From positions 1 to 10,975 of the forward strand of contig LGFB01000024.1 of NCBI GenBank assembly GCA_001508835.1: a stretch of DNA of 10,975 nucleotides. The letters are read 5' to 3'. The notes beneath the pieces are model-generated. The model did not search any database and had not been told where the DNA came from. It saw only the letters and a list, made by a program, of their open reading frames with translations. Positions 8,282-10,975 of the stretch are shown in pieces. Every line of letters begins with the position of its first letter. Position 1 is the stretch's first letter. The position numbers and the translations under genes are program-made. This stretch comes from a bacterium 42_11 (GTDB lineage: Bacteria; Synergistota; GBS-1).

Positions 8282-8310
8282 AGGATACTCTAAAAATATC
8301 AATATGTCAA
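8282..8310 (-). promoter_or_regulatory. Promoter for tRNA-Arg (and probably rpoBC)
   Basis: On the minus strand a perfect -35 TTGACA (8310-8305) is followed by a 17-nt spacer and -10 TATCCT (8287-8282, 4 of 6). The predicted start near 8275 is only about 8 nt before the tRNA 5' end. I see no stronger promoter between the tRNA and rpoB, so this may drive rpoBC too. Confidence 0.7.
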
Positions 8311-8317
8311 GTCAGGG

Positions 8318-8347
8318 TTGACAACATGCCGTTGGATGTGGTATAAG
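8318..8347 (+). promoter_or_regulatory. Promoter of the leader peptide-TRAP operon
   Basis: A perfect -35 TTGACA (8318-8323), an 18-nt spacer and -10 TATAAG (8342-8347, 5 of 6) with an extended -10 TG at 8339-8340. The predicted start is near 8354, giving a very short untranslated stretch before the leader ribosome binding site. Its -35 lies 7 nt from the -35 of the oppositely directed tRNA promoter. Confidence 0.75.
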
Positions 8348-8368
8348 TTTTAAAGAGGAGTGATAGCG

Positions 8369-8479
8369 ATGCTGATGGTAACGAGCGCAGCCAGTGAGAA
8401 AGTTTATTATTACGCTTATTATTATTTCTACTATTACAGCCCACCAGAAGGTGGGAAAGGCTGGCTGCGCAAAGGCTGA
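8369..8479 (+). CDS. Tyrosine-rich leader peptide
   Basis: A 36-codon ORF (ATG 8369, TGA 8477-8479) preceded by GAGGAG (8355-8360) with 8-nt spacing. Its centre reads YYYAYYYFYYY (8405-8437): nine tyrosines and one phenylalanine in eleven codons, six TAT and three TAC. The ends are MLMVTSAASEKV and SPPEGGKGWLRKG. The composition, the position between a promoter and an intrinsic terminator, and the overlap of its codons with strands 1 and 2 of the attenuator mark it as a sensor peptide for charged tRNA-Tyr rather than a functional protein. A single in-frame Phe makes tyrosine the main cue. It sits 91 nt upstream of dctP. Confidence 0.88.
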   Translation: MLMVTSAASEKVYYYAYYYFYYYSPPEGGKGWLRKG

Positions 8480-8506
8480 GGTAAAGTCAACCTCGGCAAG
8501 CTTGGC

Positions 8507-8545
8507 AAAAAGCCGCCACCTTTCCCAGGTGGCGGCTTTTTATTT
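8507..8545 (+). terminator. Intrinsic terminator (attenuator strand 3:4)
   Basis: AGCCGCCACCT (8511-8521) and AGGTGGCGGCT (8527-8537) form a perfect 11-bp GC-rich stem with a 5-nt loop TTCCC. A-tract 8507-8510 can extend it against T 8538-8541. A TTTTTATTTT tract follows. It lies after the leader stop and only 25-30 nt before dctP, so it should control transport gene expression rather than end an upstream gene. Confidence 0.93.
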
Positions 8546-8555
8546 TAACCTTAAA

Positions 8556-8562
8556 AGGAGGT
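8556..8562 (+). promoter_or_regulatory. Ribosome binding site of dctP
   Basis: AGGAGGT, 8 nt before ATG 8571. It lies after the terminator stem, so it stays free in both attenuator states. This supports control at transcription rather than at translation initiation, and it fixes the dctP start. Confidence 0.9.
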
Positions 8563-8570
8563 ACCCAAAC

Positions 8571-9587
8571 ATGAAAAAGGTATCAGTAATAACCATTATC
8601 AGTGGCCTAATATTAAGTATGGTAGGGTTTTCCTTTGCCTCAGAAAAAGTCATAAAACTGTCCTACGCAAACTTTTTCCCACCATCCCACATTCAGTCCA
8701 TTTTAGCTGAAGAATGGATAAAGGAAATTCAGAAAAAAACAAATGGAAAGGTCGAAATCTCCTACTTCCCTGGAGGTTCTCTCCTGCAAGGGCCAAATGT
8801 TTTTGAAGGAGTAGTAAATGGGATAGCGGATATAGGAATGTCATGCTTTGCCTATACAAGTGGGAGATTTCCTATCATGGAGGCTATAGACCTCCCCTTA
8901 GGATATCCCGATGGAATTACAGCAACAAGAGTAATAAACAAATACTTCAAGGCCATGAACCCCAAAGAATTATCGAATGTTAAAGTTTTATACTTACACG
9001 CCCATGGCCCTGGAATCCTTCACTCTAAAATAAAAATAGAGAAATTAGAAGATATAAAAGGTGTTAAGATAAGAACTACAGGCTTCAGTGCAAGAGTTGC
9101 AAAAGCACTGGGGGGCGTACCTGTGGCAATGAGTCAAGGAATGGCATACGAAGCATTACAAAAAGGAATAGTAGAAGCAACTTTTACCCCAATGGAAACC
9201 CTGAAAGGATGGAAACAAGCAGAAGTAATAAAATACACTATAATGTGCACCAAAATAGGTTATACAACAGGAATGTACGTCATTATGAACAAAGCAAAAT
9301 GGGAGAACTTACCAGCAGAAATTAAAAAGGTATTTGAAGAAGCAAGTCATTATTGGATAGAAAAACACGGAAAAGCTTGGGATCAAAGCGACTTAGAAGG
9401 AAAAGAATTTACCCTAAGCTTAGGGAATGAAATTATAATTCTTCCTGACGAAGAGCATGAAAGATGGAGAAAAGCTGTTGAACCTGTAATAGACGAATAT
9501 ATCAACGAGATAGAAAAGAAAGGGGTATCTGGCAAAGAAGCTATAGAGAAACTTAGGCAAATCATAAAGGAGGAAATCGCCAATTGA
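8571..9587 (+). CDS. dctP: TRAP transporter substrate-binding protein (DctP family)
   Basis: Periplasmic solute-binding subunit of a tripartite ATP-independent periplasmic transporter, 338 residues. It captures an organic acid and delivers it to the DctQM membrane unit. Signal peptide MKKVSVITIISGLILSMVGF with a likely cut after SFA (residue 23). The mature start VIKLSYANFFPPSHIQS fits the family. KIR(T) carries Arg168, the place of the conserved carboxylate-binding arginine, followed by ALGGVPVAMSQGMAYEALQKG and VEATFTPMETLKGW (about 201-214). The segment MSQGMAYEALQ departs from the common M..EVY.ALQ, so the ligand may not be a C4-dicarboxylate. The start is set by the ribosome binding site and signal peptide; an in-frame open stretch upstream to 8394 runs through the terminator and is not coding. 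First gene after the attenuator. The symbol denotes the family, not the substrate. Confidence 0.95.
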   Translation: MKKVSVITIISGLILSMVGFSFASEKVIKLSYANFFPPSHIQSILAEEWIKEIQKKTNGKVEISYFPGGSLLQGPNVFEGVVNGIADIGMSCFAYTSGRFPIMEAIDLPLGYPDGITATRVINKYFKAMNPKELSNVKVLYLHAHGPGILHSKIKIEKLEDIKGVKIRTTGFSARVAKALGGVPVAMSQGMAYEALQKGIVEATFTPMETLKGWKQAEVIKYTIMCTKIGYTTGMYVIMNKAKWENLPAEIKKVFEEASHYWIEKHGKAWDQSDLEGKEFTLSLGNEIIILPDEEHERWRKAVEPVIDEYINEIEKKGVSGKEAIEKLRQIIKEEIAN

Positions 9588-10090
9588 AAAAAACGGGTGA
9601 AAGATTAAATACTCTTTCCGCTTACATATTAGGCATACTAACCTTGCTAATATGTGCAGATGTTATTTTAAGAGCCTTTAGACATCCCATACCAGGAAGC
9701 TATGATATAACAGGTTTTTTGACTTCAATAATGCTTTCCTTGGCCATGGTAAGAAGCTTTCAAGCTAAAAATCACATAACTATAGACCTCATCGACAAAT
9801 TCGTTTCGAAAACGAAGGCAAATATTGTTAACCTCATTTCTAAGGCAATAACAAGCGTATTCTTGGGCATTCTTTTCCTAAGCATGATTTCCTCCGGCTT
9901 TAGCTCAAAATCTGCTGGAGAGGTATCAATGACATTGGGAATACCCTTGTATCTTAGCTATATAGCAATTGGAATATGCGCAGGACTTGCCTTTACAAGC
10001 GAAATACTCCCCGTTTTTACCAAAATAAGATTTAGCAAAGAAATAGAAATAGACAAAGAAATAAAAGAATTAGGGGGGGAAAGAGTTTGA
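9584..10090 (+). CDS. dctQ: TRAP transporter small membrane subunit (DctQ family)
   Basis: Small integral membrane subunit, 168 residues, which pairs with DctM and is needed for docking of the binding protein. Four hydrophobic segments at about 12-32, 43-60, 86-108 and 118-142, the standard number. Family-like stretches include PIPGSYDITGFL after helix 1, a FQAKNHITIDLI loop after helix 2, and LGIPLYLSYIAIG in helix 4. The start is a TTG at 9584 that overlaps the dctP stop (TTGA), with AAAGGAGG (9566-9573) 10 nt upstream; the first ATG lies far inside the second helix region. The C-terminus ends in a charged cytoplasmic tail (KEIEIDKEIKELGGE). The overlap implies translational coupling within one operon. 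Confidence 0.93.
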   Translation: MKKTGERLNTLSAYILGILTLLICADVILRAFRHPIPGSYDITGFLTSIMLSLAMVRSFQAKNHITIDLIDKFVSKTKANIVNLISKAITSVFLGILFLSMISSGFSSKSAGEVSMTLGIPLYLSYIAIGICAGLAFTSEILPVFTKIRFSKEIEIDKEIKELGGERV

Positions 10091-10975
10091 TTCCTCCCCT
10101 TTCTGGAATTGCTGGAATAGCTTTCCTTCTTCTTTTATTCTTCCTAAAAGTGCCAGTAGGTAGAGCTATGGCCCTTGTTGGATTCCTTGGATTCGGGATG
10201 TTGGTTTCCTTTCCAGCAGCAATCAAACTCTTAGCAGTGGATTTCTTTTCCTCTTTTAATTCCTATACATTAGGAGTAATACCTCTTTTTGTGCTAATGG
10301 GGCAATTGGCCTACCATTCGGGAATGAGTAGGAGACTATATGAAGCTTCCAACAATCTGGTAGGACACCTACCGGGTGGACTGGCCATAGCTACTATATG
10401 GGCAAGCGCAGGATTCGCAGCTATATGTGGTTCGACCAATGCATCGACCGCAACAATGGCAATGGTAGCATTACCAGAAATGAAGCGATACGGATACCCC
10501 GAATCACTAGCAGCAGGAAGTGTAGCCGCAGGCGGAAGTTTGGGAATAATGATACCTCCCAGCGTTATATTCGTCATATATGGGATTTTAACCCAACAAT
10601 CGATAGGAAAGCTCTTTATGGCGGGGATTATCCCAGGTTTAATGCTTTCGGCCCTTTTCTCCATAGCCATCTACATATGGACTAAGATAGATTCCAACAT
10701 TGCTCCCAAGAGCGAAAAGAAACCATGGAAGGAAAGAATATCCTCAATCTTGAGCTCTTTAGAAGTCCTCTTAACATTTCTGCTTGTAGTCGTCGGTTTA
10801 TTAAAAGGTATCTTCACTCCCGTCGAGGCAGGTGCTGTAGGAACCGGATTAGTGGGTTTAACCTCTTTAATAAGAGGGACCCTTTCCTGGAATGGAATTA
10901 AACAATCTCTTGAAGAAAGCGTTAGAATATCATGCATGATAATAGTAGTAGTGGCAGGTGCAACGGTCTTCGGAC
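10087..10975 (+). CDS. dctM: TRAP transporter large membrane subunit (DctM family, 3' end beyond window)
   Basis: Large membrane subunit, the ion-coupled transport channel of the TRAP system. 296 codons are visible with no stop; about 425 residues would be usual. The start is read as TTG 10087, overlapping the dctQ stop by 4 nt (TTGA) as at the dctP/dctQ junction, with a G-rich stretch about 7 nt upstream. Motifs seen: IPLFVLMGQLAYHSG (about 69-83), CGSTNASTATMA (114-125), GGSLGIMIPPSVIFVIYG (149-166), QQSIGKLFMAGIIPG and TPVEAGAVG (244-252), all typical of the family. Multiple hydrophobic helices throughout. Completes a P-Q-M gene order under the attenuator. Confidence 0.95.
   Translation, partial: MIPPLSGIAGIAFLLLLFFLKVPVGRAMALVGFLGFGMLVSFPAAIKLLAVDFFSSFNSYTLGVIPLFVLMGQLAYHSGMSRRLYEASNNLVGHLPGGLAIATIWASAGFAAICGSTNASTATMAMVALPEMKRYGYPESLAAGSVAAGGSLGIMIPPSVIFVIYGILTQQSIGKLFMAGIIPGLMLSALFSIAIYIWTKIDSNIAPKSEKKPWKERISSILSSLEVLLTFLLVVVGLLKGIFTPVEAGAVGTGLVGLTSLIRGTLSWNGIKQSLEESVRISCMIIVVVAGATVFG

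Follow-up and report, generated by a model that had tools for sequence, protein, structure and literature searches.

The leader and the operon at the dctPQM locus

The stretch of DNA analysed here (10,975 nt, hereafter the window) is contig C196 of genome G000, an assembly of 1.41 Mb that is 78% complete. At its 3' end, the DctP, DctQ and DctM subunits are encoded in one gene run, as is characteristic of a DctPQM TRAP transporter. This run is preceded by a short ORF rich in tyrosine codons and by several complementary RNA arms, 5' of which lie a divergent tRNA-Arg and rpoB. The host phylum is probably Synergistota rather than Firmicutes, since a protein 81% identical to the DctP of the window is labelled Synergistetes by its source. 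The features of the locus, named by their predicted roles, are the following:

8318-8323 and 8342-8347, + strand: promoter read from the sequence, with -35 TTGACA, an 18-nt spacer and -10 TATAAG
8355-8360, + strand: Shine-Dalgarno GAGGAG of the leader ORF (upstream bases read for each leader)
8369-8479, + strand: leader ORF MLMVTSAASEKVYYYAYYYFYYYSPPEGGKGWLRKG, 36 codons, ATG start, stop TGA at 8477-8479
8385-8394, + strand: 5' arm of protector helix P1, GCGCAGCCAG, exact inverted repeat with 8461-8470
8405-8437, + strand: control codons YYYAYYYFYYY (9 Tyr, 1 Phe, 1 Ala)
8440-8455, + strand: small hairpin P2, CCCACC-AGAA-GGTGGG (CCCGC/GCGGG in relatives)
8452-8468, + strand: antiterminator 5' arm, TGGGAAAGG-(C)-TGGC-(T)-GC, pairing with the terminator 5' arm and loop
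8461-8470, + strand: 3' arm of protector helix P1, CTGGCTGCGC, overlapping the antiterminator arm
8475-8497, + strand: hairpin P3 (GCTGAGGT...ACCTCGGC) surrounding the leader stop codon, from folding and alignment
8507-8541, + strand: intrinsic terminator between the leader ORF and dctP, exact arms 8507-8521 and 8527-8541
8512-8527, + strand: antiterminator 3' arm, made of the terminator 5' arm and loop
8555-8561, + strand: Shine-Dalgarno AAGGAGG of dctP
8571-9587, + strand: dctP, TRAP solute-binding protein (PF03480, 7.9e-51)
9584-10090, + strand: dctQ, TRAP small membrane subunit (PF04290, 2.7e-16)
10087-10975, + strand: dctM, TRAP large membrane subunit, cut by the contig end (PF06808, 9.3e-62)

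The gap between GAGGAG and the start of the leader ORF is 8 nt. The core of the antiterminator consists of TGGGAAAGG (8452-8460) and its exact complement CCTTTCCCA (8519-8527), and the pairing extends past this core as TGGC:GCCA and then as GC:GC with a bulged C. A first-pass annotation had described a promoter, a ribosome binding site, a 36-codon ORF with YYYAYYYFYYY and a TRAP operon, all of which are present in the window. It had also proposed that protector, antiterminator and terminator pairings exclude one another, and we did find exact complementary arms for them, the antiterminator being incompatible with both the protector and the terminator. The sequence thus holds what a leader-peptide attenuator would need, that is a Shine-Dalgarno and a short ORF with clustered control codons, followed by a putative terminator 5' of the first structural gene.

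The minimum free energy of 8354-8560 was -80.5 kcal/mol compared to a shuffled mean of -56.9 (sd 4.6), which corresponds to a z of -5.2, and none of 200 shuffles was as low. A consensus scan listed neither the leader promoter, because its -10 ends in G, nor the leader terminator, because the first five U's sit inside the stem.

The predicted structure of DctP (pLDDT 92.9) bears on the solute. Upon structural alignment of this model, 11 of the best 14 rows were titled aromatic acid or TarP, these 11 rows representing 4 distinct proteins. The overall fold is close to that of TarP-type aromatic-acid TRAP binding proteins (PDB 7nqg, 7nrr, 7nsw and 7nr2), whose identity to the DctP of the window is only 25-28%. 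TarPQM is presented as an aromatic-acid TRAP system in PMC3610893. Based on the model, the transporter likely takes up some aromatic acid, and we infer tyrosine, an arylpyruvate, or an arylacetate convertible to tyrosine as candidates.

Conservation of the leader before dctP

By searching 61 genomes (including G000 itself) at the DNA level, we found the element in four, all belonging to family f1 and being the only f1 genomes in the set. It precedes a dctP ortholog in each of them, namely G000, G001, G002 and G003 (bacterium GBS-1, which NCBI leaves unclassified). One genome of this leader-bearing group is that of a hot-spring bacterium. At the protein level, a DctP search at E <= 1e-80 over 185 genomes of the phylum returned the ortholog in exactly these four, all with the leader; among these 185 genomes, the dctP-type leader is confined to the four related ones.

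The gene found 5' of the leader-dctP unit is rpoB in G000 and G001, a gene for an NMT1_3-family binding protein in G002, and one for a PaaK-like CoA ligase in GBS-1. The latter, a PaaK-like phenylacetate-CoA ligase (locus L013, 2278-3594), is divergent to leader-dctPQM and scores below the curated NCBIfam cut-off.

The four dctP leaders carry 6-9 Tyr, 0-1 Phe and 0-1 Trp codons, and out of 33 Tyr-Tyr codon comparisons between them, TAT/TAC differs in 13. The C-terminus of the window's leader peptide (8440-8479, PPEGGKGWLRKG) is in a different frame from the PA[RK]-RERL of its relatives. Despite this frame difference, P2 and the arm of the antiterminator have been preserved, and RNA constraint at 8440-8479 seems to outlive the peptide sequence.

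A paralogous leader before aroE-aroD

A second copy of the leader lies before aroE-aroD in three of the four f1 genomes (G000:C221, G001:C1 and G003:C15). In G001 and G003, aroE-aroD are followed in the same gene run by tctC-tctB-tctA and iclR, and the tripartite tricarboxylate transporter encoded by the tct genes may share the control of the aro leader. In G002, aroE is present and a script found no leader beside it. Nine loci were scanned by script for aromatic short ORFs with a terminator behind them: the known leader was recovered in 6/6 loci containing one, and the other three, aroB-aroC in G001 and in G003 and pheA-tyrA in G001, gave none.

The aromatic codons of the aro leaders (4-5 Tyr, 3-4 Phe and 2 Trp) follow the order W-F, then Y/F, then T-W. 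As far as sequence can tell, the scaffold is common to the dctP and aro leaders and the codon set varies with the operon.

The genes of aromatic biosynthesis differ between these genomes. Relatives G000-G002 have both prephenate dehydrogenase (PDH) and prephenate dehydratase (PDT), and two family searches and one DNA search gave no PDH or PDT match in the 98%-complete assembly of GBS-1, which has aroB and aroC and keeps both the dctP and the aro switch. Given that pheA and tyrA adjoin in G001, a single assembly gap in GBS-1 could hide both; unless this is the case, GBS-1 is predicted to be a Tyr/Phe auxotroph. In the 78%-complete assembly of G000, there was no match to aroB or aroC.

Structure across seven aligned leaders

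Alignment A3 comprises seven sequences, that is the four dctP leaders (G000-G003) and the three aro leaders (G000, G001 and G003), across which the -35 and -10 columns are largely kept. For the nested structure, 91.0% of the cells were paired compared to a shuffled mean of 87.0, and 9 of 38 pairs were changed on both sides compared to a shuffled mean of 3.5; none of 500 shuffles reached either value, with the caveat that related sequences can beat shuffles without any structure. Further pair types, one of five structure measures, were not above the shuffles (17 versus 14.9, reached by 78/500). When partners were slid as a control, pairing fell to 39-52%, a control that favours a structure derived from one aligned sequence, as done here.

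The protector P1 was paired in 70/70 cells (7/7 sequences), and in 5 of its 10 pairs both partners have changed. Elsewhere, such changes were found for one pair of P2, two of P3 and one of the terminator; at one P2 pair, the window has A-U where the six remaining sequences have G-C. The terminator was paired in 98% of its cells and P3 in 71% (MAFFT alignment). The antiterminator was paired in 97% of its cells and is nearly invariant, with no covariation of its own in the seven sequences (416/500 shuffles match). Thus, the prior expectation that Tyr codons and stems would be conserved with compensatory changes held for the codons, the stems and the protector, and fell short for the antiterminator, which lacks covariation.

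Wider distribution in the phylum

A covariance model built from the seven leaders (R1) was run over the 185 genomes. At E <= 0.001 it matched nine of them: the four f1 genomes, at seven sites (E 1e-37 to 8e-31), two f7 genomes (G019, 1.2e-5; G055, 5.8e-4) and three judged to be chance. The f7 leaders, MAATRFFALDYYYYLYFTPHRTDSGEVGYFVKAG and MATSQAFVFNYYYYLYFTPHRTDSGEVGCCMKAG, share the design of the f1 leaders and have Phe/Tyr codons in aromatic runs ending YYYYLYF, and they are followed by a small ORF and then by a 483-aa symporter ORF. Pfam assigns the G019 symporter to SSF (sodium:solute symporter), and the G055 protein is near-identical by eye. In G019, the folded protector takes in the leader start codon.

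Several matches were discarded. Those of G068, G129 and G133 are terminator-like hairpins with no aromatic leader seen by eye and were attributed to chance. Minus-strand matches on the window and G001 fall on the terminator palindrome, and a match on G001:C3 (L070) is a hairpin after a tRNA-like stretch.

A second model, built from nine sequences (R2), matched 7/185 genomes and added G181 (E 7e-4). At this site (G181:C115, L066 1484-1650), a short ORF with three Pro codons, MRNTFIRISRSNPCVPPCTGKNCRRKGLVVS, lies before proC, with a similar terminator-loop pairing. This is a weak single case from a single 73%-complete genome, and an alignment including it misplaces its protector; it is a possible proline-codon attenuator.

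The dctP switch does not appear to be a lone oddity, since the phylum has a few attenuators of similar design. More speculatively, the phylum might use a modular attenuator chassis, made of a protector, an antiterminator that reads the terminator loop and a terminator, and retarget it by swapping codon run and operon: Tyr with an aromatic-acid TRAP transporter, Trp/Phe/Tyr with aroE-aroD-tctCBA, Phe/Tyr with a sodium:solute symporter and Pro with proC. tRNA charging would thereby be coupled to the scavenging of aromatic precursors, on which GBS-1 would depend after loss of pheA and tyrA. We hold this broader proposal only tentatively. The T-box of Firmicutes is retargeted likewise.

Proposed mechanism and folding of the leader

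Taken as a whole, the element very probably works by ribosome-mediated leader-peptide attenuation of transcription. It would sense the charging of tRNA-Tyr and govern a TRAP transporter whose solute is most likely an aromatic acid. Within this reading, four points are inferred: that the leader is translated, that ribosomes stall at its Tyr codons, that the ribosome holds the P1 arms apart, and which solute is taken up.

Transcription would start a few bases past the -10 (8347), with a ribosome trailing the RNA polymerase on the leader ORF. When tyrosine is ample, the ribosome would pass the Tyr codons up to the stop at 8477 and cover about 8460-8490. At this position it would hide the latter half of the antiterminator arm and leave the core uncovered, and the terminator (8507-8541) would end transcription. 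When charged tRNA-Tyr is scarce, the ribosome would stall in 8405-8437 and keep the upstream arm of the protector away, a stall at the last control codons also melting P2. This would free the arm 8452-8468 to pair with 8512-8527 ahead of completion of the terminator, and dctPQM would be transcribed. If the leader is not translated, P1, P2 and the terminator would form. According to this scheme, the importer would be made only when tyrosine is scarce, the leader being a tyrosine gauge.

We calculated the folding of the leaders in these different states. First, in the finished RNA, the probability of the terminator was at least 0.96 in 7/7 leaders, with the ribosome either absent or at the stop. 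Second, with the ribosome at the stop and the transcript ending at the terminator loop, the antiterminator was at most 0.004 in 6/7 leaders, the exception being the dctP leader of G001 (0.70 until the terminator is complete). Third, two calculations were made for the stalled ribosome, both on transcripts ending at the terminator loop. When only the RNA downstream of the ribosome was allowed to fold, the antiterminator core reached 0.72-1.0 at the aromatic codons of the window's run. The corresponding values were 0.43-1.0 (G003), 0.97-1.0 (G002) and 0.86-1.0 (G001) for the other dctP leaders, and 0.91-1.0 (G003) and 0.87-1.0 (G001) for the aro leaders, the values approaching 1 towards the end of the run, where the ribosome melts P2. 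The G000 aro leader failed in this calculation, its antiterminator being at most 0.11. Since the codons preceding the run gave values similar to those of the run in most leaders, folding of the downstream RNA alone shows permission and not codon specificity.

When pairing across the ribosome was allowed, the protector won and the antiterminator was near 0 at most stalls. In the window, we obtained 0.41 and 0.34 at Y13-Y14, 0 from Y15 to F20, and 0.18-0.62 at Y21-Y23. At the first aromatic codons, the antiterminator was at 0.97 in G002, 0.73 in the dctP leader of G001, 0.48 in the aro leader of G003 and 1.0 in that of G001; at the last codons of G002 it was at 0.22, and in the dctP leader of G003 it was 0 throughout. 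Because the 5' arm of the protector lies 5' of the Tyr codons, stalling helps only if the ribosome keeps the two arms apart. That a stalled or trailing ribosome keeps the upstream arm away in the seconds available is plausible, and the mechanism assumes it. The placement of the protector upstream of the control codons makes such separation of flanking RNA arms by a stalled ribosome a testable point.

The Tyr-rich run could also act as a peptide. In such a case, free tyrosine or some other aromatic ligand would cause the nascent chain to arrest the ribosome, the sensor being the peptide in the exit tunnel, as for the arrest peptide TnaC. Such an arrest would suit the long run (6-9 Tyr in the dctP leaders) and the distance from its last aromatic codon to the antiterminator core, 16-22 nt in 7/7 leaders (for the window, the calculation itself took W32; by coordinates, Y23 is 18 nt from the core). 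However, the run is longer in some leaders than in others and its interruptions (A, F, R, CV or L) differ between them, and the aro and SSF leaders carry other aromatic codons on the same scaffold, which fits codon counting better and makes a peptide sensor improbable.

The position of the protector arm upstream of the run also has the consequence that only stalls at the first codons mask this arm, and ribosomes held before the run would permit the antiterminator as well. Both points would be expected if the run were merely a slow stretch that senses general translation or starvation instead of tyrosine. Against this, codon choice tracks the operon, with Tyr at the transporter and Trp/Phe/Tyr at aroE, and we consider a general sensor quite unlikely. 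Finally, an ordinary constitutive terminator after a chance ORF, with no regulation, would account for an antiterminator without covariation but hardly for the folding z of -5.2 or for an ORF, a run, a compensated protector and an invariant terminator-loop complement kept in seven sequences and two kinds of operon, and we give it very little credence.

The reading of the locus as a tyrosine leader-peptide attenuator, already put forward in the first-pass annotation, is supported by the anatomy of the leader, its presence at 4/4 dctP orthologs, the compensation in the protector and the Trp/Phe/Tyr paralogue at shikimate genes. If correct, the leader names what the cell is short of when the transporter is switched on. 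It would thereby yield a substrate prediction, an aromatic acid feeding tyrosine, for a TRAP transporter known here from assemblies alone.

Comparison with known systems

The classical trp, his, leu and pheA attenuators and the leader described here have the same elements before the operon: control codons inside a leader ORF, then protector, antiterminator and terminator. In contrast to these attenuators, the window has Tyr as control amino acid and a TRAP transporter as target. The two also differ in layout: the 5' arm of the protector precedes the control codons in the window, whereas textbook attenuators have these codons inside the protector arm, and the putative antiterminator uses the terminator loop together with the 5' arm. 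None of the amino-acid leader families of Rfam reached its cut-off (Thr_leader 27.4/55 bits, Phe_leader 17.3/55), the 28 Rfam matches that 8300-8600 gave at E up to 10 included no T-box, and the whole window gave only a tRNA at gathering score.

The first-pass annotation knew of no described tyrosine-coding leader attenuating a TRAP transporter. In the literature covered, mostly open-access text, we found no tyrosine leader, no attenuator with a TRAP target and none described in this phylum, which supports novelty provisionally for these points. A transporter target is not new in itself, since the bmrCD operon of Bacillus subtilis is reported to be under ribosome-mediated transcriptional attenuation (PMC4191407). 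There, the operon encodes a multidrug ABC transporter answering antibiotics and not an amino acid.

The aro leaders have a counterpart in the uORFC-13-1 motif found before aroF in Acholeplasma, a candidate uORF attenuator with a possible promoter, RBS and terminator (PMC8632094). It has a shikimate-pathway target as well, and it differs by a U run coding at least one Phe, by its phylum and by the absence of a transporter. For leader peptides beyond Proteobacteria and Actinobacteria, those of Firmicutes his genes were a new report in 2010 (PMC2965389), and PMC9413887 predicts more. The His leaders in these two sources are located before hisS/hisZ paralogues and his genes. Like the leaders described here, they are non-Proteobacterial and one is common to paralogous genes, and they differ by their amino acid, histidine, and by their phylum.

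The literature covered places leader-peptide attenuation chiefly at amino-acid genes of Proteobacteria and Actinobacteria and adds cases from Firmicutes and Acholeplasma. A tyrosine-codon version governing uptake in this phylum suggests that the mechanism recurs, and that it can be duplicated and re-tuned by its codons.
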